A DNA stretch of 64,000 nucleotides from Metabacillus sp. KUDC1714 (GTDB lineage Bacteria; Bacillota; Bacilli; Bacillales; Bacillaceae). A program made the position numbers and the translations under genes. Below, in pieces: positions 56,281-64,000 of the stretch (its first letter is position 1; every line of letters begins with the position of its first letter). Location of the stretch: contig NZ_CP055263.1 of assembly GCF_014217835.1 (NCBI RefSeq), forward strand, positions 2,731,501-2,795,500. Reading direction: 5' to 3'. The notes beneath the pieces were generated by a model that did no database searches, was not told the DNA's origin, and worked only from the letters and a program-made list of their open reading frames with translations.

Positions 56281-57111
56281 ATGAATTGTAAAACATTACG
56301 TATTCACCGACTTTTCCATCCTAGTTCAAAGCGATCACTATTACTTCCAATAGATCATGGAACAACGATGGGACCGTTAACTGGTCTACTTAACATTCCT
56401 GATTTGATTAGACAAGCTAAGGATAGTGGGTATCAAGCAGTCATTGCCCATAAAGGCATCATTCATTGGGCGATGTCCGAAAATCAAGATTTATCTGGTA
56501 TGGACTATATTTTACATTTGAGTGCATCAACATCAATGGGACCTGACACTGCATTTAAGCAACAGGTTACTAGTGTAGAGCACGCTTTGCGATTAGGAGT
56601 AACAGGAATTTCTGTTCATACTAATCTTGGTGTTTTACATGAGCCTGAAATGTTAAAAGAATTAGGAGAATTATGTGATCAAGCTTATCATTGGGGACTA
56701 CCATTATTAGTCATGATGAATGTAACAAAAGCTGAACGCACAACCAACTTATTAGACCATGGGAAACGAATTGCTCATGCAGTTAGAGTGGCAGGGGAGT
56801 TAGGTGCTGACATGGTTAAAGTAGAGTGCCCTGACCATCTAGAAGTGCTACCTGAAATAATGTCTGCCTTTAAGATTCCTGTGTTAATTGCAGGAGGGAT
56901 TAAATCAAGTTCAAAATTAGATTGGCTTCAATCTCTTGATGATTGTTTAGAGGCTGGTGCAAAAGGCTTATGTATTGGTAGAAATGTATTTGAAGATGAA
57001 AATCCACTAGCGATGGGACTAGCACTAAATGCACTAGTTCATGAGCGTCAATCAGGCAGTGAAGCATATGAAATATACAGGGGACATCAAGTTTTACCGC
57101 TTTTTAATTAA
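56281..57111 (+). CDS. DhnA/GriI-type class I aldolase (3,4-AHBA pathway)
   Basis: A 276-residue Schiff-base aldolase of the DhnA/LsrF group. Visible are LLPIDHGTTMGP (residues 21-32), VMMNVTK (144-150), ADMVKVECP with the likely Schiff-base Lys180, VLIAGGIKSS (201-210) and GAKGLCIGRNVFEDENP (phosphate site). GriI, of similar size, joins aspartate semialdehyde to dihydroxyacetone phosphate on the way to 3,4-AHBA. The archaeal ADH synthase for dehydroquinate is the main alternative, but the ligases and exporter argue for secondary metabolism. ATG 56281, with GGAGG seven bases upstream. Confidence 0.85.
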   Translation: MNCKTLRIHRLFHPSSKRSLLLPIDHGTTMGPLTGLLNIPDLIRQAKDSGYQAVIAHKGIIHWAMSENQDLSGMDYILHLSASTSMGPDTAFKQQVTSVEHALRLGVTGISVHTNLGVLHEPEMLKELGELCDQAYHWGLPLLVMMNVTKAERTTNLLDHGKRIAHAVRVAGELGADMVKVECPDHLEVLPEIMSAFKIPVLIAGGIKSSSKLDWLQSLDDCLEAGAKGLCIGRNVFEDENPLAMGLALNALVHERQSGSEAYEIYRGHQVLPLFN

Positions 57112-57138
57112 AATTAATAAACAGGGGTGAATAGGAAT

Positions 57139-58500
57139 ATGGAAATGACGAAATTCAAGATAAGACCAAGAAAAATGACGACTCTTGTTGAGGGACATCA
57201 ATCACATTTAGAGGAACTTATTCCTTTTTTCGAACAATTGGATAATCAACAGCAAACAATCGAGACTTTGCCGCGTGAGGTAATTGATTCATTTCATGTA
57301 AAAGCAATTAATTTAACGCTGAACCATGCTTGGAACAAGAATGACTTTTATAGAGAAAAAATGCAGCAAGCTGGAATGGTTACTCCTCATATAAATGATT
57401 TATCAGAATTAGCAAATGTACCTTTTTTAAAGAAGGCGGAAATTGCAGGTGACCGGACGAAGCTACTTTGCTGTCCCACTAGTGAGATTGGACAAGTCCA
57501 CTCGACTTCAGGGACGACAGGGAAACCGATGTACTTATCCTATACTTTAGCAGATCAATTTAAATATGATGTGATACCGAAGTATCCTGTCTTATTTCCA
57601 GATAGTGATGAAGATGTTGTAGCTGTTGCTTTGCCATATGAGGTGGCCCAGCCAGGATTAGGATTTCAGCGCGTCTATCAATTTGTATTTGGAGCGACGG
57701 TTATATCGATTGGAAAAGGTGGCTACATGGCCCCAGTAGAAAAATCTTTAGAACTAATGAAAGAATATCAAACGACTATTTTAGCAACAACACCATCATA
57801 TGCGGCCTTACTTGCAGAAGAGAGTGAAAAATTAGGTTATAAATTAGGACAGGATATAAAATTGCGTCGTTTGATTTTAACAGGCGAAGGGTGTTCCCCA
57901 CAATTTAGAACTCGTCTTGAAGAGCTTTATGGTTGCCAAGCCACCTTCTTCTATGGTTCTACAGAATGCGGGATGATTGGTGTCGAGTGCTCAGAACAAC
58001 ATGGTTACCATGTAGTACCTGGTCATGTGAAAGTAGAAATCATTAATCCACTGACAGAAGACGTTTTAGAATATGGTGAAATTGGTGAGATTGTTGTTAC
58101 CACACTTATGAGAGAAGGAATGCCGATCATTCGTTACAGAACAGGCGATATGGGCTACCTAATGAAATCCTCGTGTGGAAATGAGATAACTTCAGATATT
58201 CTCCATTTACGCGGTAGAAAAGAAAATCAAATTCGCCTTTATGGTGAGGACTATTCACCATTTTTATTAGAAAATATTCTGTTAGAAATACCTGAAGTAG
58301 GCATGTGGTTCAAGTTCATCGTATCCAATGAAGAGTTAACAGTTGAAGTTGAACCGTTCAAAACTGAACTTACAGATGAACAATTAATAGATAAAGTGAC
58401 TTCACATCTTTACAACACTCTTGAATTTAATTGCAAGGTTATCATCAATCATCATATCGAGCGTACGTTTGAAAAAGCAAAAAGAGTCTTTTTTGAATAA
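57139..58500 (+). CDS. PaaK-like (phenylacetate-CoA ligase family) adenylating enzyme 1
   Basis: A 453-residue ANL enzyme of the PaaK/F390-synthetase group. Core motifs are intact: STSGTTGKP (122-130), FYGSTECG (271-278), YRTGD (333-337), RGRKENQIRLYGEDYSP, and a C-terminal FEKAKRV with the expected catalytic lysine (446 or 448). It should activate an aryl carboxylate, most simply 3,4-AHBA, as adenylate and perhaps CoA ester. ATG 57139 is chosen over GTG 57127 because GGGGTG lies at normal distance only from the former. It follows the aldolase gene after 27 bases. Confidence 0.85.
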   Translation: MEMTKFKIRPRKMTTLVEGHQSHLEELIPFFEQLDNQQQTIETLPREVIDSFHVKAINLTLNHAWNKNDFYREKMQQAGMVTPHINDLSELANVPFLKKAEIAGDRTKLLCCPTSEIGQVHSTSGTTGKPMYLSYTLADQFKYDVIPKYPVLFPDSDEDVVAVALPYEVAQPGLGFQRVYQFVFGATVISIGKGGYMAPVEKSLELMKEYQTTILATTPSYAALLAEESEKLGYKLGQDIKLRRLILTGEGCSPQFRTRLEELYGCQATFFYGSTECGMIGVECSEQHGYHVVPGHVKVEIINPLTEDVLEYGEIGEIVVTTLMREGMPIIRYRTGDMGYLMKSSCGNEITSDILHLRGRKENQIRLYGEDYSPFLLENILLEIPEVGMWFKFIVSNEELTVEVEPFKTELTDEQLIDKVTSHLYNTLEFNCKVIINHHIERTFEKAKRVFFE

Positions 58501-58550
58501 ATAAAAATCATATTTTAATATCAATTTTTTAGAAACAGGTGAATATTCAT

Positions 58551-59336
58551 ATGATCATTGATTCTCATGCACATATTTCAAAGCGAACAGCTGCAAAACC
58601 AGAAATACTAATCCAAGATATGGATCTTGCCGGTATAGACAAAGCTGTCCTAGTACCAGGTGGTATGCTCGATATTCGGAAGATGTCAGAATATACAACC
58701 TTGAGAGAGAGACCTGAGCCAGTTCAACCAGATAACGAATATGTGGAACACTGTGTTGCCTTATACCCAGAAAGATTTATTGGATTTTATTGTATAAATC
58801 CATTGCCAGATGCTCGTGATATCGAAAGCGAAGTGAAACTCGCTATTCAAAAGGGGTTTAAAGGAATAAAACTTGCACCTCTTGTCCACCCAATGTCATT
58901 CCTAGAGGGCAATGTCAATTGGATCGCTGAATTATGTAGTACTTATGATATTCCTTTATACACGCATGTCACTGTCAATGAAGAGACTAACACATTTGCA
59001 CTAGAATCATTAGTTGCAAAACATCCTAACACGACGATCATAATCGGTCATATGGGGATAGGGGATGTTGATCAACACGCAATTAATTTGGCAAGTGAGT
59101 TTCCGAATGTTTACTTAGAAACATCTTTAGCACCAATCCTCGCGCTTAAATTGGCGATCAAACAGGCAGGGGTAAAAAAACTATTGTTTGGGACTGAGTT
59201 TCCACTTTCAGATGCAATAGTTGAACGTGAAAAGATTAATCGCCTTTCACTTTCTGACGAAGAGAAACAAATGATTTTAGGTGGGAACTTTGCAAGACTT
59301 TTAACATTAACTATACCAATTGAACAAAGGACGTGA
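58551..59336 (+). CDS. Amidohydrolase-2-family (COG2159) metal enzyme
   Basis: A 261-residue TIM-barrel amidohydrolase. Metal ligands are seen as DSHAH (His6, His8), THV (His139) and GHMG (His167). The position of the usual catalytic Asp (GSDYP/GTDYP) reads GTEFP, with Glu216. In nataxazole biosynthesis a related amidohydrolase, NatAM, closes the benzoxazole ring by dehydration; this is the likely parallel, by inference from context. A decarboxylase or simple hydrolase is the alternative. ATG 58551 with CAGGTG upstream; the GTG 58539 overlaps that site. Five bases separate its stop from the next start. Confidence 0.82.
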   Translation: MIIDSHAHISKRTAAKPEILIQDMDLAGIDKAVLVPGGMLDIRKMSEYTTLRERPEPVQPDNEYVEHCVALYPERFIGFYCINPLPDARDIESEVKLAIQKGFKGIKLAPLVHPMSFLEGNVNWIAELCSTYDIPLYTHVTVNEETNTFALESLVAKHPNTTIIIGHMGIGDVDQHAINLASEFPNVYLETSLAPILALKLAIKQAGVKKLLFGTEFPLSDAIVEREKINRLSLSDEEKQMILGGNFARLLTLTIPIEQRT

Positions 59337-59341
59337 CGGAT

Positions 59342-60457
59342 ATGAATATTAAGAAGGCCTTATTTGATGCAAGAAATATAACTGAAGAACAGATAGAATC
59401 GACTCTATTGACTGTAAACCAAAGTATTTCTTTCCGTGGGATCCTATTAACATATGACCAGGTTGAACATTTACCTATTTCACCTCGTTTGGAAAAACAT
59501 ATCGTTGTTGACAATATGGACCAATGTAGAATGTTTGGCTCTGAGGAAGCATTAACGACAATTGTTTCAACCAACTTGAGAGTGCTCCAGCTTGCAAGAG
59601 AAGAGGGGTACAAAACGTGTTGGTATATTCGAGTAATCGACCAAGAAACAATGCTTGAAGCTGTTGAGTATGGAATGGAAAACCCGATTTTGATTGTAGA
59701 TTTTAAAGATGAAACAAATATTCCGTTAGAACTAGTCATTGCGAAACTACAAAACTATGAAATTGAGATTATTAAGCGTGTTGTGAGTACGGAGGATGGA
59801 AGGGTATCTTCAGATGTAATGGAAGTGGGAGCAGATGGAATCCTGCTTACCACAACGAACATGGAGGAAATTTTGGATATGAATAAATTCATGCAGCAAT
59901 CGCGCAATACTCAGTTAGATATTGTGAGCGCAACAGTAACCAAAGTAGAGCATTTGGATGCCGGTGAACGAGCATGTATTGATACTACAAGTTTATTAAC
60001 AAAGGAAGAAGCAATGATAATTGGGTCGACCTCATCAGGCGGCTTAATGGTATGTAGTGAAACACATTACCTTCCTTATATGAATACTCGTCCATTCCGT
60101 GTCAATGCTGGTGCTGTCCATTCCTATGTGTGGTGTCCGAATGATACAACAGAATATATAACTGATTTACGAGTAGGAAACCAAGTCACAGTCGTTGACC
60201 TAAATGGTAATTGCCGGTCGGTTAATGTGGGACGAATGAAAATAGAGGTTAGACCACTGTTACTTATCGAATGTGAATACGAAGGCATGAAAATAAACGC
60301 AATTGTTCAGGATGACTGGCATATTAGAATATTTGATGGTGATGGAAATCCAAAAAGTGCTACAACCTTTAAACCGGGAGACAAAATTATGGCTTATATG
60401 TGTGAGCCTGGTCGACACATGGGCGTTAAGATTTTAGAAACAATAACGGAACAGTAA
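59342..60457 (+). CDS. Class II 3-dehydroquinate synthase homologue (GriH-type 3,4-AHBA synthase)
   Basis: A 371-residue homologue of archaeal DHQ synthase II. Family stretches: EVGADGILLTT, GGLMVCSETHYLPYMNTRPFRVNAGAVHSYV, VGNQVTVVDLNGNCRSVNVGRMKIEVRPLLLIECEYEG, and FKPGDKIMAYMCEPGRHMGVKI. GriH of the grixazone cluster has this fold and turns the aldol product into 3-amino-4-hydroxybenzoate. Bacteria use AroB for shikimate, so this class in a Bacillus cluster points to 3,4-AHBA. ATG 59342 is preferred (AAAGGA ten bases upstream); GTG 59333 overlaps the amidohydrolase stop. Confidence 0.87.
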   Translation: MNIKKALFDARNITEEQIESTLLTVNQSISFRGILLTYDQVEHLPISPRLEKHIVVDNMDQCRMFGSEEALTTIVSTNLRVLQLAREEGYKTCWYIRVIDQETMLEAVEYGMENPILIVDFKDETNIPLELVIAKLQNYEIEIIKRVVSTEDGRVSSDVMEVGADGILLTTTNMEEILDMNKFMQQSRNTQLDIVSATVTKVEHLDAGERACIDTTSLLTKEEAMIIGSTSSGGLMVCSETHYLPYMNTRPFRVNAGAVHSYVWCPNDTTEYITDLRVGNQVTVVDLNGNCRSVNVGRMKIEVRPLLLIECEYEGMKINAIVQDDWHIRIFDGDGNPKSATTFKPGDKIMAYMCEPGRHMGVKILETITEQ

Positions 60458-60482
60458 ACAATATGCCAAGGAGGTTGTGATC

Positions 60483-61754
60483 GTGACAGAACTTTCTAAA
60501 GTAAGGGAACAAAAATTTGCACGTTTGCTTGAGTCAAAGAATCAGTCCCTTTTTTATAGAAACAAACTTGAAACTTACAATCTAAACAATGTATCCCTTT
60601 ATGATCTACCTTCACTTCCATTAACGACAAAAGAGGATTTAAGATTAGCAGAACCCTATGATTTAGTAGGTGTGGCGGTATCAAAAATCGCTCATTATCA
60701 TGAATCATCAGGCACAACTGGAATAAGTAGTTCATCCTGGTTTACACTTGAAGATTTACAGACAGCTGGAAATCAGTTGAATCAAATGGGGGTAAACCTT
60801 AGTAATGAAGATTTGGTATTAATTCGATTTCCCTTTGCTTTATCCTGTACAGCATTTTTAATGCAACAGGCATGTATGCAAGCTTCTGCAGGAATGGTTC
60901 CAGCAAGTAGCCGTACTACAATCACACCATATGTAAAAGTGTTAGAGCTCATGCAAAAACTAAATGTTTCAGTATTTGCGGGTTTGGCAAGAGAATTGGA
61001 ATATTTAATAGAAACAGCGAAAATGATGGGATTGAGTATGCAGGAGGCTTTTCCGAATTTAAGAGCCGCTTGTGTAGCAGGAGAGTTACTTGGAGATCAT
61101 AGGAAGAAATATTTAGAAAGTAAACTAGGGGTGCCTGTGTACGGATTTTATGGATCTACCGAAACAGCAAATATTGCTTCAATGTGTGAATATGGAAACA
61201 TGCACATTTCGGAAGAAGATTTCGTGATCGAAGTGCTTAATGAACAGACGAAGCAGCCAGAAAAGATAGGTGAAAAAGGTCTACTAGCTGTAACAACATT
61301 ATCACATCAAGGGTCACCTATGCTCAGGTATGTAAATGAGGATATCGTAACAGTAAAAGAAACGAAGTGTCGATGTGGACATAGTGGAAGGCAAATCATT
61401 GTCCATGGTCGTGCAAAAGAGAGAATTGTAAATTCTAAAGGAACTATTTTAGAAGGTTTAGATATTCACGAAGCTATTTATCGTTTACCAAAAGTCCCAT
61501 TGATTTGGAAGATTGTTGAATCAGATGAATATTTAACTGCAATCGTTGATTTTGGAGACGACTCTTTATCAGTAACAGAGATACGTAACATGGAGCAACA
61601 TTTAACAGAATTTTTAGATCTACCTGTAATCGTAAGGTTGGCTAATAAAGGTGAATTAATAAACCGACAATTATTTACTGAAAATACAATTAGCCTAAAA
61701 CCAGTATACATAAAACTGCAGGAAAAAAATTCGAAAGTTGAGCTATCTCTATGA
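60483..61754 (+). CDS. PaaK-like adenylating enzyme 2, degenerate motifs
   Basis: A 423-residue ANL protein of the PaaK/F390-synthetase group that departs from ligase 1. The phosphate loop SSGTTG (75-80) is followed by ISSSSW instead of KP. YGSTET (223-228) is kept, but YRTGD is replaced by YVNED (283-287), and no lysine motif of KAKR type is seen at the C-terminus. A CRCG pair (Cys296, Cys298) is present, as in some PaaK relatives. It may activate a second substrate or catalyse condensation without CoA transfer. GTG 60483 lies eight bases after AAGGAGG; the GTG 60477 is too close. Its stop overlaps the next start (ATGA). Confidence 0.8.
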   Translation: MTELSKVREQKFARLLESKNQSLFYRNKLETYNLNNVSLYDLPSLPLTTKEDLRLAEPYDLVGVAVSKIAHYHESSGTTGISSSSWFTLEDLQTAGNQLNQMGVNLSNEDLVLIRFPFALSCTAFLMQQACMQASAGMVPASSRTTITPYVKVLELMQKLNVSVFAGLARELEYLIETAKMMGLSMQEAFPNLRAACVAGELLGDHRKKYLESKLGVPVYGFYGSTETANIASMCEYGNMHISEEDFVIEVLNEQTKQPEKIGEKGLLAVTTLSHQGSPMLRYVNEDIVTVKETKCRCGHSGRQIIVHGRAKERIVNSKGTILEGLDIHEAIYRLPKVPLIWKIVESDEYLTAIVDFGDDSLSVTEIRNMEQHLTEFLDLPVIVRLANKGELINRQLFTENTISLKPVYIKLQEKNSKVELSL

Positions 61755-62692
61755 GTATGATTACATGTGAAAAAGTAAATAAACGCTATGGTGAACGTCA
61801 TGTTGTGAAGGATTTGAATTTAATCATAGAAAAAGGAGAGGTATTTGGATTATTAGGTCCAAATGGTGCAGGAAAAACAACTTCAATCTCTATGATGACA
61901 TCACAATCTCTTCCAAGTGATGGAAATATTATAGTTAATGATCTTAATGCTCAACAGAAACAAAAACAAGTCAAAAAAATAGTTGGAATCGTTCCTCAAG
62001 ATATTGCTCTTTATCCGATGCTAAGTGCCATTGATAATTTAAAGTTCTTTGGAGAGTTATATGGCATAAAAGGGAAGCCACTTAAAGAAAAGGTATCTGA
62101 ATTACTAGAGTTAGTTGGTCTGACAGATCGTGCTAAGGAACCGATAAAAAATTACTCTGGTGGGATGAAACGTAGAATTAATATCGCAGCTGCATTAATT
62201 CATAATCCTTTGGTCGTATTTATGGATGAACCAACTGTCGGAATTGATCCACAGTCCCGAAATCAAATATTTGATTTGATTAGGTTATTAAAAAGTCAAG
62301 GTATTACAGTTGTCTACACTACTCATTATATGGAAGAAGCAACAGTGTTATGTGACCGGGTAGCGATCGTTGATGGTGGTCAAATCATTGCTTTGGGAAC
62401 TGTAGAAGAGTTAGTGGCTCAAGTTTATGGAGGCGTAATAGAGCTCACTTGTGAAAATGATGAAGAAGCTATTGGTTTATCAGAAAACTTAAGTGATATC
62501 TCATTTGTGAAAAATGTTCGGATATCGGAAAAAAGGCTCGAATTAGTTGTTGAGGATATTAATCAAAACGTTGCAGTGTTACTTGAAAAGTTGAATCGTA
62601 AAGAGAGTAGTGCACGCGTTACAAATATTATGCATCCCTCTTTAGAGACATTATTTTTATATAAGACTGGGAAAAAATTAAGAGATTCATAG
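61751..62692 (+). CDS. ABC-2-type exporter ATP-binding protein
   Basis: A 313-residue ATPase of the DrrA/CcmA-like group: Walker A GPNGAGKT (36-43), signature YSGGMKRRINIA, Walker B LVVFMDEPTVGIDPQ, and a C-terminal domain of about 90 residues typical of drug and natural-product exporters. ATG 61751 overlaps the ligase-2 stop by four bases, so translation is coupled. With the next gene it probably exports the cluster's product, and may confer self-resistance. Confidence 0.92.
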   Translation: MSMITCEKVNKRYGERHVVKDLNLIIEKGEVFGLLGPNGAGKTTSISMMTSQSLPSDGNIIVNDLNAQQKQKQVKKIVGIVPQDIALYPMLSAIDNLKFFGELYGIKGKPLKEKVSELLELVGLTDRAKEPIKNYSGGMKRRINIAAALIHNPLVVFMDEPTVGIDPQSRNQIFDLIRLLKSQGITVVYTTHYMEEATVLCDRVAIVDGGQIIALGTVEELVAQVYGGVIELTCENDEEAIGLSENLSDISFVKNVRISEKRLELVVEDINQNVAVLLEKLNRKESSARVTNIMHPSLETLFLYKTGKKLRDS

Positions 62693-62724
62693 AAGTCATT
62701 TAGCTGAAAAAGGAGAATTTTACT

Positions 62725-64000
62725 ATGCAATGGTGGGCAATTGCTAAAAAAGATTTAAGGATCATGTTAAAAGATCCTGGAGCAATCGTTGTTTTGTTCA
62801 TGCTTCCATTAATGCTCATGACCATTATGAGTTTTGCTTTAATGCCAGTATTTCAAGGAGGAGAGGGTGAAGAAATCACTCTTCCTATTGTAAATCTAGA
62901 TCAAACGAACGATTCTGACAAATTAATTGAATTATTGGATGCTACCGAAGGTGTAAAGTTAACTTTTGCTAAAGAAGATGGTACCGAATATACCGAGGGA
63001 AATGCGAAACAAGCAGTAAAGGATGGAGAATTTCCTTTTGCATTAATTATTCCAGAGGGTTTTGGTAGTAAGATTAAAAACGGTGAAAAACTAGAGTTAG
63101 TATCGTATGAAGACCCAGCACAAGCCAATATCACCTCAATTATCGGAAGAGCGATAGAAGGGGTAGCACAAGCATTTGAGGTAGAGTATATCGTTAGTCG
63201 AATGGTTGATAATCAGGTTGCAGACATCAATCAAATGGTTACTGATGAAATTGAGCAAGTAGAACTTGCGTATCAGGATCAAATTGAAGCATTGACAACT
63301 CAATTAAATCAATTGACAAACAATGCAGCTGTACCAGCTTCAGTGGAGGTAGACTCACAAGAAGAAACGGCGCCAGACCTTACTGGAATGAAGGAAGATT
63401 TAGTAAATACTGCGAGCGAATCTCTTAGTAACCCAAGTATTACTATAGGAACCTACTCCGCTACAGAGGGTGAGGTAATCGAACGACCCGATGCCTTTCA
63501 GCAAAATGTACCGGGTTATACGGTCATGTATGCGTTTTTCATTATTATGTATGCGGGTCGCTCATTTTTAAATGAAAGAAATGACGGTACGTTTAGAAGA
63601 ATTTTAGCGGCACCAGTTGATCGTTGGCAATTATTTATGGGGAAAATGATTCCAAATTATTTAATCGGTATTGTTCAAGTAGTCGTTCTCTTTGCTTTCG
63701 GACATTTTGTCTTTGATATGTCACTTGGTTCATCCTTTACTGGTTTAATCGTTGTGACACTTTCGCTTGTATGGGCAAGCTCTTGCTTAGGTATGTTAAT
63801 TGCTGCCGTTTTTAAGACAGATTCGCAAATATCAGGATGGTCTGTTTTGCTCGCCTTAACATTGGCTGCATTAGGTGGAACGATGGTCCCTTTATTCATC
63901 ATGCCAGATATCATGCAAAATATCGCATTAATTACACCACATGCATGGGCTCTAACAGGATATCAGGATATTTTAGTAAGAGGACTTGGATTCGAACACG
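62725..64000 (+). CDS. ABC-2-type exporter permease, 3' end outside window
   Basis: ATG 62725 follows AAGGAG; the frame stays open to the window end (425 complete codons). One N-terminal membrane segment (VVLFMLPLMLMTIMSFALMPV) is followed by a large extracytoplasmic domain of about 220 residues. The C-terminal membrane block begins near GYTVMYAFFIIMYAGRSFLNERNDGTFRRILAAP, the ABC-2 signature region. It is the membrane partner of the ATPase upstream. Confidence 0.9.
   Translation, partial: MQWWAIAKKDLRIMLKDPGAIVVLFMLPLMLMTIMSFALMPVFQGGEGEEITLPIVNLDQTNDSDKLIELLDATEGVKLTFAKEDGTEYTEGNAKQAVKDGEFPFALIIPEGFGSKIKNGEKLELVSYEDPAQANITSIIGRAIEGVAQAFEVEYIVSRMVDNQVADINQMVTDEIEQVELAYQDQIEALTTQLNQLTNNAAVPASVEVDSQEETAPDLTGMKEDLVNTASESLSNPSITIGTYSATEGEVIERPDAFQQNVPGYTVMYAFFIIMYAGRSFLNERNDGTFRRILAAPVDRWQLFMGKMIPNYLIGIVQVVVLFAFGHFVFDMSLGSSFTGLIVVTLSLVWASSCLGMLIAAVFKTDSQISGWSVLLALTLAALGGTMVPLFIMPDIMQNIALITPHAWALTGYQDILVRGLGFEH

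Follow-up and report, generated by a model that had tools for sequence, protein, structure and literature searches.

A closoxazole-type benzoxazole pathway has already been described (PMC12118335), and the same text reports that the Pfx core is sufficient for closoxazole A, that PfxB closes the oxazole ring in vitro, and that homologs of ClxD occur in several phyla, Bacillota among them. Benzoxazoles serve as scaffolds for drugs, and trials of the closoxazole enzymes as biocatalysts are under way (PMC12118335, PMC12519233). Here we analyze a related operon of Metabacillus sp. KUDC1714, located at the end of the window, i.e. of the whole 64,000-nt stretch of DNA that was studied (NZ_CP055263.1, positions 2,731,501 to 2,795,500). 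It is not a new kind of cluster, because such clusters are already in print. What appears to be new is the separate branch it represents, the Asn residue of its aldolase, a chorismate-lyase-like gene beside the ligases, and a second cluster in the host genome.

Operon layout and the five core enzymes

The original prediction placed an aldolase, a class II dehydroquinate synthase (DHQS II) homolog, two ligases, an amidohydrolase and an ABC-2 exporter in one tight operon, and this was borne out by the coordinates, Pfam matches and gene spacing: all these genes are present and intact on the + strand from 56281 onward (Table 1). The end coordinate 64000 is only that of the window; the operon runs on to approximately position 67469 and comprises ten genes spaced by -4 to +38 bp, followed by a 248-bp gap that contains a 16-pair hairpin. 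The Pfam scores of the aldolase, the amidohydrolase, the DHQS homolog and the ABC proteins are far above the cut-off, and those of the two ligases in the window are 58 and 35.7 bits for AMP-binding (cut-off 29.9). The identical ten-gene order, with protein identity of 91–99%, was found in another Metabacillus genome (M. bambusae, L034). The G+C content gives no hint that the operon was acquired recently (0.369 vs 0.367 for the window).

Table 1. Genes of the Metabacillus operon in window coordinates (position in the extended locus L003 = window position minus 56000)
Gene product	Position	Strand	Evidence or remark
DhnA-type aldolase (ClxE/PfxE/GriI type)	56281..57111	+	PF01791 118.7 bits
PaaK-like adenylate ligase 1 (ClxC/PfxA type), predicted adder of last unit	57127..58500	+	AMP-binding; PfxA best match
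Amidohydro_2 protein (ClxD/PfxB type), predicted oxazole-closing condensing amidohydrolase	58539..59336	+	PF04909 103.7 bits
DHQ synthase II homolog (ClxB/PfxD/GriH type), predicted 3,4-AHBA synthase	59333..60457	+	PF01959 330 bits
Adenylate ligase 2, lig2 (ClxA/PfxC type), predicted first coupling	60477..61754	+	245 bits to PDB 9s3l
ABC exporter ATPase, DrrA-like	61751..62692	+	PF00005 106 bits; drrA model 286 bits vs cut-off 312
ABC-2 permease	62725..64083 (window part to 64000)	+	PF12698 122 bits
Chorismate-lyase-like protein, 194 aa	64080-64664		beyond window end
Racemase-like/TPR fusion	64661-65953		beyond window end
Acyl-AMP ligase (third ligase)	65967-67469		beyond window end

All five enzyme types of the closoxazole pathway (Clx/Pfx) are present in this one cluster, and each of the five core proteins pairs with a different closoxazole protein of P. 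fallax as its best match. Because of this correspondence the label 'benzoxazole-forming' is well supported by sequence comparison, and the predicted combination of a 3,4-AHBA-type module with ligases, an amidohydrolase and an exporter, most likely for a benzoxazole, holds. Ligase 1 matches PfxA best (35% over 432 aa), and the DHQS homolog shows 38% identity to PfxD. The amidohydrolase, whose predicted structure has a pLDDT of 92.9, exhibits the metal-site residues of the ClxD/PfxB type (H10, H12, H143, H171 and E220 conserved; ClxD itself was outside the comparison). The PDB counterpart of lig2 in Table 1, 9s3l, is a structure which we take to be ClxA. At the key positions of the ClxA ligase (taken from PMC12519233), lig2 retains the equivalents of T222, N226 (acyl-donor), D281 and K393, and differs in having Ser-Arg for K140-A141, Leu for M198, Phe for Y218 and Val for H301. 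Since PfxC of P. fallax has Pro in place of N226, this residue marks the ClxA kind only.

Relatives of the operon and the second cluster of the host

A genome scan with two peptide patterns identified 72 loci, a lower bound from which Clostridium cavendishii is absent; they were sorted into branches by hand, with 'type B' (48 of the 72) comprising everything unplaced otherwise. For the trees, loci judged to be duplicates or near-duplicates were left out. The operon and 12 of the 72 loci form a clade separate from Pfx in the amidohydrolase tree (74 rows of 85, support 98/98), a separate clade in the aldolase tree (52 rows, 100/100) and, once Mesobacillus is left outside, also in the lig2 tree (62 rows, 91/97). 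The deepest fork of the synthase tree, which had 56 rows, each trimmed to the last 400 residues, and contained neither archaeal rows nor GriH, reached 64/76. The view of the operon as a putative separate branch of the closoxazole-type pathway, a branch with no known product, is supported.

Elsewhere in the host genome lies a second cluster, which is P. fallax-like and has TPR genes, so that two parallel clusters can be compared directly in one genome. A conserved block precedes the cluster of this second type, and a sporulation promoter was considered there as a candidate. 'Ligase-less' clusters in four Metabacillus genomes were also considered as a new pathway and rejected, as both ligases are located elsewhere in each genome (three of the four ligase loci were read).

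Proposed pathway and alternative explanations

We consider it fairly probable that the operon encodes a closoxazole-type pathway of the separate branch, which makes and exports a mixed benzoxazole of 4-hydroxybenzoate and 3,4-AHBA. Judging from homology and context, the aldolase and the DHQS-like enzyme would provide 3-amino-4-hydroxybenzoate, and the chorismate-lyase-like protein would provide 4-hydroxybenzoate. The ClxA-type ligase would then adenylate an aryl acid bearing a para-hydroxyl and esterify it with 3,4-AHBA, and the ester would be closed to the benzoxazole ring by the ClxD-type amidohydrolase. Another aryl unit could be attached by the ClxC-type ligase, and the finished compound would leave the cell through the ABC-2 exporter. 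This compound would most likely be a carboxylate of 2-(4-hydroxyphenyl)benzoxazole, which may or may not carry a third unit. The support for this proposal comes from the genes, the operon layout, the best-match relations, the active-site residues and the recurring neighborhoods; the points against it are the score of the lyase-like protein, its patchy presence, the aldolase lacking the usual Tyr, the differences between lig2 and ClxA, and the model scores of the DHQS homolog. The latter scores best with the DHQ-synthase model (282.6, cut-off 485) and 213 with the AHBA-synthase model; such NCBIfam scores alone do not decide between AHBA and DHQ activity. A PDB search with this protein returned only designed TIM barrels (E 0.14 and 0.25).

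The 194-aa protein resembles the Rv2949c-like chorismate pyruvate-lyases (PF01947, DUF98) in its fold and by a remote profile match, but scores below the Pfam cut-off (15.8 bits vs 22). Three of its 30 relatives are listed as 4-hydroxybenzoate synthetase, and the fold is also common to GntR effector-binding domains. It likely works like a chorismate pyruvate-lyase, as judged from the fold and the remote profile. Its gene lies beside these ligases in 11 of the 11 genomes of the family with a strong match; in four genomes of the family it accompanies the ligases and a DAHP-synthase-like gene, with no DHQS-type synthase. Seven more genomes have weak lyase matches, with no ligases nearby in the one that was read. 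In the separate branch the gene was detected in 5 of the 12 named loci (in M. malikii it is outside the locus, and the Neobacillus contig is cut). The recurrence with the ligases suggests 4-hydroxybenzoate as a co-substrate.

Or perhaps the operon encodes the plain closoxazole pathway, in which 3,4-AHBA alone yields closoxazole A or a close isomer, and the lyase-like gene serves something else, e.g. the third ligase? The sufficiency of the Pfx core is in line with this, as are five Paenibacillus loci of the branch that possess the core with no lyase-like gene detected in their 19–21 kb; yet in Metabacillus the gene overlaps each of its operon neighbors by 4 bp and it turns up together with the ligases in differently arranged loci, and we regard this explanation as unlikely. 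It is improbable that the product is a linear, bagremycin-like compound in which 3,4-AHBA and 4-hydroxybenzoate are joined as an ester or amide, and that the amidohydrolase decarboxylates or hydrolyzes instead of closing an oxazole. The fold neighbors of the amidohydrolase include aromatic-acid decarboxylases (e.g. ACMSD and dihydroxybenzoate decarboxylases), and the best NCBIfam-type model for lig2 is BagE/FevW, albeit with 174 bits, far below the cut-off of 800; on the other hand, the amidohydrolase is 41% identical to PfxB and shares its invariant residues.

The aldolase (PRK07226 236 bits, just below the cut-off of 241) exhibits Asn at the position equivalent to 153 in MJ0400, where the compared relatives from outside the branch have Tyr, a residue which we take to be catalytic. 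All 13 distinct rows of the branch have Asn, and so do the 19 highest-scoring entries among the 120 matches listed (of 423), the remaining 101 having Tyr; the residue of the P. fallax aldolase, a sequence outside the tree, was read from the alignment by eye. The enzyme might consequently make a different precursor and the ring be formed from a variant of 3,4-AHBA, but this is a rather remote prospect: D33 and the Schiff-base K184 are invariant in all 120 matches listed of the 423 (query included), and the pairing of a branch-type aldolase with a Streptomyces-like synthase in the P. chitinolyticus group (tree 100/99) suggests the same intermediate. As the aldolase is conserved in other respects, its change from Tyr to Asn poses a clean mechanistic question. 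Finally, although the synthase and the aldolase score best with the DHQS II and ADH-synthase models, a role in archaeal-type aromatic amino-acid supply or in aromatic catabolism has a negligible probability, as the operon also contains the ligases, the amidohydrolase and the exporter, and the former was dropped because a canonical aroB is present in the genome (PF01761, 158 bits). The original prediction had named as evidence against itself a placement of both enzymes with archaeal ones in a genome lacking aroA/aroB; the points checked, aroB and the aldolase tree, give no such evidence, archaeal MJ0400 being placed apart from the aldolase.

Returning to the mixed benzoxazole of 4-hydroxybenzoate and 3,4-AHBA, a broader reading is plausible, if slightly short of probable: the loci may constitute a third benzoxazole branch of Bacillota, which combines chorismate-derived 4-hydroxybenzoate with 3,4-AHBA, uses the Asn aldolase, re-uses its ligases for 4-hydroxybenzoate esters and has TPR partners. 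The ester part refers to ligases that have a DAHP synthase and the lyase as neighbors, with no DHQS-type synthase or clear ClxD-type amidohydrolase, and the TPR part to TPR proteins that occur alone or fused either to a racemase-like domain or to a ligase. The racemase-like domain itself was rejected as a real racemase and no role is assigned to it, because its first motif, in which Cys is usual, reads ANT in six of six rows (two from one species). A separate branch whose enzymes include a supply of the second acid could offer a concrete route to mixed 2-(4-hydroxyphenyl)benzoxazoles, and one that is easy to test.

Comparison with known systems

Among the titles and abstract openings listed by full-text literature searches, none describes this Metabacillus cluster; a 2022 closoxazole paper may describe relatives. 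In the nataxazole system, NatL2 and NatAM would act alike, with a ligase forming the ester and an amidohydrolase closing the ring, and lig2 scores 140 bits to PDB 6siw and its group, which includes the NatL2 entries 6six and 6siy (identified as such in PMC12519233). The predicted relation of the amidohydrolase to NatAM did not emerge: NatAM is absent from its five PDB sequence matches (it is not listed in the fold re-alignment either, which proves nothing), and we treat the protein as one of the ClxD/PfxB type. The grixazone, bagremycin and ferroverdin systems (GriI-GriH, BagB-BagC) likewise combine a DhnA-type aldolase with a DHQS II homolog in one operon, and D33 and K184 of the GriI-type aldolases are retained in Metabacillus. 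The scores in this comparison, made with models, are low (BagB/FevI model 154, BagC/FevH model 213), and, unlike in these systems, there is no o-aminophenol oxidase among the ten Metabacillus genes according to Pfam, and the aldolase has Asn at position 153. The closest counterparts are pfxA-E of Pyxidicoccus fallax and clxA-E of Clostridium cavendishii, whose five enzyme types the Metabacillus operon shares; it differs from P. fallax in gene order, and from the closoxazole clusters in the replacement of the aldolase Tyr by Asn and in the addition of exporter, chorismate-lyase-like, racemase-like/TPR and third-ligase genes.

Extent and composition of the operon

All genes listed in the original prediction were found, intact and with the expected Pfam families. 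The operon proposed there was confirmed in its genes, while its end at 64000 turned out to be only the edge of the window, as the third ligase ends further downstream (Table). In the host genome (5.76 Mb, one contig, with the window at 2731501–2795500), the ten operon genes are separated by gaps of -4 to +38 bp and followed by a gap of 248 bp, which contains a 16-pair hairpin, a weak signal (10 terminator-like sites vs 7.2 expected from shuffles). An operon with these ten genes in unchanged order is found in the M. bambusae genome (protein identity 91–99%). In the racemase-like/TPR fusion the first motif is ANT in 6/6 rows, and the Cys of the second motif is kept.

Table. Features of the operon (L003) and of the second cluster in the host genome (G000)
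Feature	Position	Strand	Remarks
Whole operon	aldolase start 56281 to third-ligase end ~67469 (window numbering)		ten genes
194-aa chorismate-lyase-like protein	beyond window end		no Pfam match at 0.001
Asp/Glu-racemase-like domain fused to TPR repeats	L003:8661-9953 = window 64661-65953
Acyl-AMP ligase (third ligase)	beyond window, end ~67469
Second benzoxazole cluster	G000 5505071-5513063 = L004:9071-17063	minus	TPR-TPR-lig1-amidohydrolase-lig2-DHQS-aldolase

The window's branch and its aldolase

Searching public genomes for matches to a profile of the amidohydrolase identified 72 loci, a lower bound. The window's branch (its own operon and 12 named loci from Metabacillus, Paenibacillus, Sporosarcina, Mesobacillus and Neobacillus) is split in the trees, whose midpoint roots serve drawing purposes only, from both the clx-like anaerobes and the group containing P. 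fallax. It is supported in the trees of the amidohydrolase (98/98, 13 rows), the aldolase (100/100, 13 rows) and the ClxA/PfxC-type ligase, lig2 (91/97, 16 rows, four of these from clusters without the DHQ synthase homologue, DHQS), although the lig2 of Mesobacillus falls outside on a long branch. In the synthase tree, the base of which is weak (64/76), 8 rows of the branch group together (99/96), and the P. chitinolyticus group has a Streptomyces-like synthase in place of the branch synthase (100/99). In Paenibacillus loci L036-L038, L040 and L041 of this branch the Streptomyces-like synthase, a swapped gene, adjoins a branch-typical aldolase. The label clx-like rests on the position of ClxA within this group in the lig2 tree (98/97), C. 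cavendishii being represented in the trees by ClxA residues 15–397 only, and on the gene order lig2-synthase-lig1-amidohydrolase-aldolase, taken as clxA to clxE in order and present in 3/4 loci (no synthase was seen in L066).

The position corresponding to 153 of MJ0400, whose Tyr we take to be catalytic, is Asn in 13/13 distinct aldolase rows of the window's branch (16 rows including duplicates). It is Tyr in four reference aldolases (MJ0400, two from Streptomyces and one from a Klebsiella plasmid), in P. fallax, and in 4/4 clx-like and 49/49 other rows. Among the best 120 of 423 database matches, Asn occupies this position in the 19 with the highest scores and Tyr in the remaining 101, while D33 and K184, described as the proton acceptor and the Schiff base residue in PMC4162585, are invariant in all 120. 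The branch aldolase is expected to yield the same intermediate, and hence 3,4-AHBA, because the P. chitinolyticus group pairs it with a Streptomyces-like synthase.

Ligase residues, the second cluster and related loci

The lig2 sequence matches PDB entry 9s3l (labelled phenylacetate-CoA ligase, 245 bits), which is taken to be ClxA because 11/11 checked residues agree with those given for ClxA in PMC12519233. lig2 retains the counterparts of ClxA T222, D281, K393 and N226, but has Ser-Arg for K140-A141, Leu for M198, Phe for Y218 and Val for H301. N226 touches the para-hydroxyl of the donor acid. Asn is found here in 21/22 rows best matching the window lig2 (duplicates counted; the exception, L044, has Gly), in all four clx-like anaerobe rows and in the spirochaete row L078; second-type rows have Thr, Pro, Ala or Ser with a single Asn (L077), and P. 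fallax has Pro.

The proteins of the second host cluster show 39–49% identity to the window copies and are nearer to P. fallax (51–64% for lig2, the amidohydrolase and lig1). DHQS genes were found in 15/21 genomes of the genus and in 0/59 other genomes of the family sample. TPR genes like those of the second cluster accompany 44/48 loci assigned to the second type and were found in none of the 4 clx-like, 4 myxobacterial, 4 other and 12 window's-branch loci; TPRs of the racemase-fusion kind occur in 6/12 loci of the latter. The second-type operon is preceded in 14 Metabacillus loci (L004, L021-L033), upstream of the first TPR gene, by a block of strong conservation whose spacing appears to resemble that of mother-cell sporulation promoters.

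Four loci (L150, L171, L172 and L173) from genomes without DHQS combine lig1, lig2, DAHP-synthase-like, chorismate-lyase-like and TPR genes, and are candidates for a 4-hydroxybenzoate ester pathway; L150 additionally encodes a ligase-TPR fusion (Pfam). In M. malikii (L020, L170) the cluster runs on into ketosynthase, ACP-, FabG-, FabD- and FabZ-like and thioesterase genes, then a chorismate-lyase-like gene, an extension resembling an aryl-polyene set (ketosynthase and thioesterase named by Pfam, the others by inspection of the sequence).

Proposed product and relationship to the closoxazole pathways

The following counts against the favoured reading, in which the predicted product is an exported mixed 4-hydroxybenzoate/3,4-AHBA benzoxazole. 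The lyase-like gene was detected in only 5/12 named loci of the window's branch within the stretch of DNA compared for each locus; M. malikii has one farther along, outside that stretch. Moreover, the window synthase scores highest with the DHQ-synthase model (282.6), ahead of the general-subfamily model (276.3) and the AHBA model (213), none of these scores reaching its cut-off. Such scores do not separate AHBA- from DHQ-synthase activity well, because PfxD of P. fallax (general subfamily: 283.9) obtains 242.1 with both specific models.

The core proteins pair one-to-one as best matches with the P. fallax closoxazole locus (L091), with identities of 35% (lig1-PfxA), 41% (amidohydrolase-PfxB), 35% (lig2-PfxC), 38% (DHQS-PfxD) and 32% (aldolase vs the PfxE region), the Pfx names being placed on the L091 genes from gene order and similarity, following PMC12118335. 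There, closoxazole A is reported to be formed in vitro from 3,4-AHBA by PfxA, B and C, with an ester as the likely substrate of ring closure. Closoxazole-type clusters are already in print and the operon is ordinary in kind; it is a distinct branch of these clusters, with new parts.
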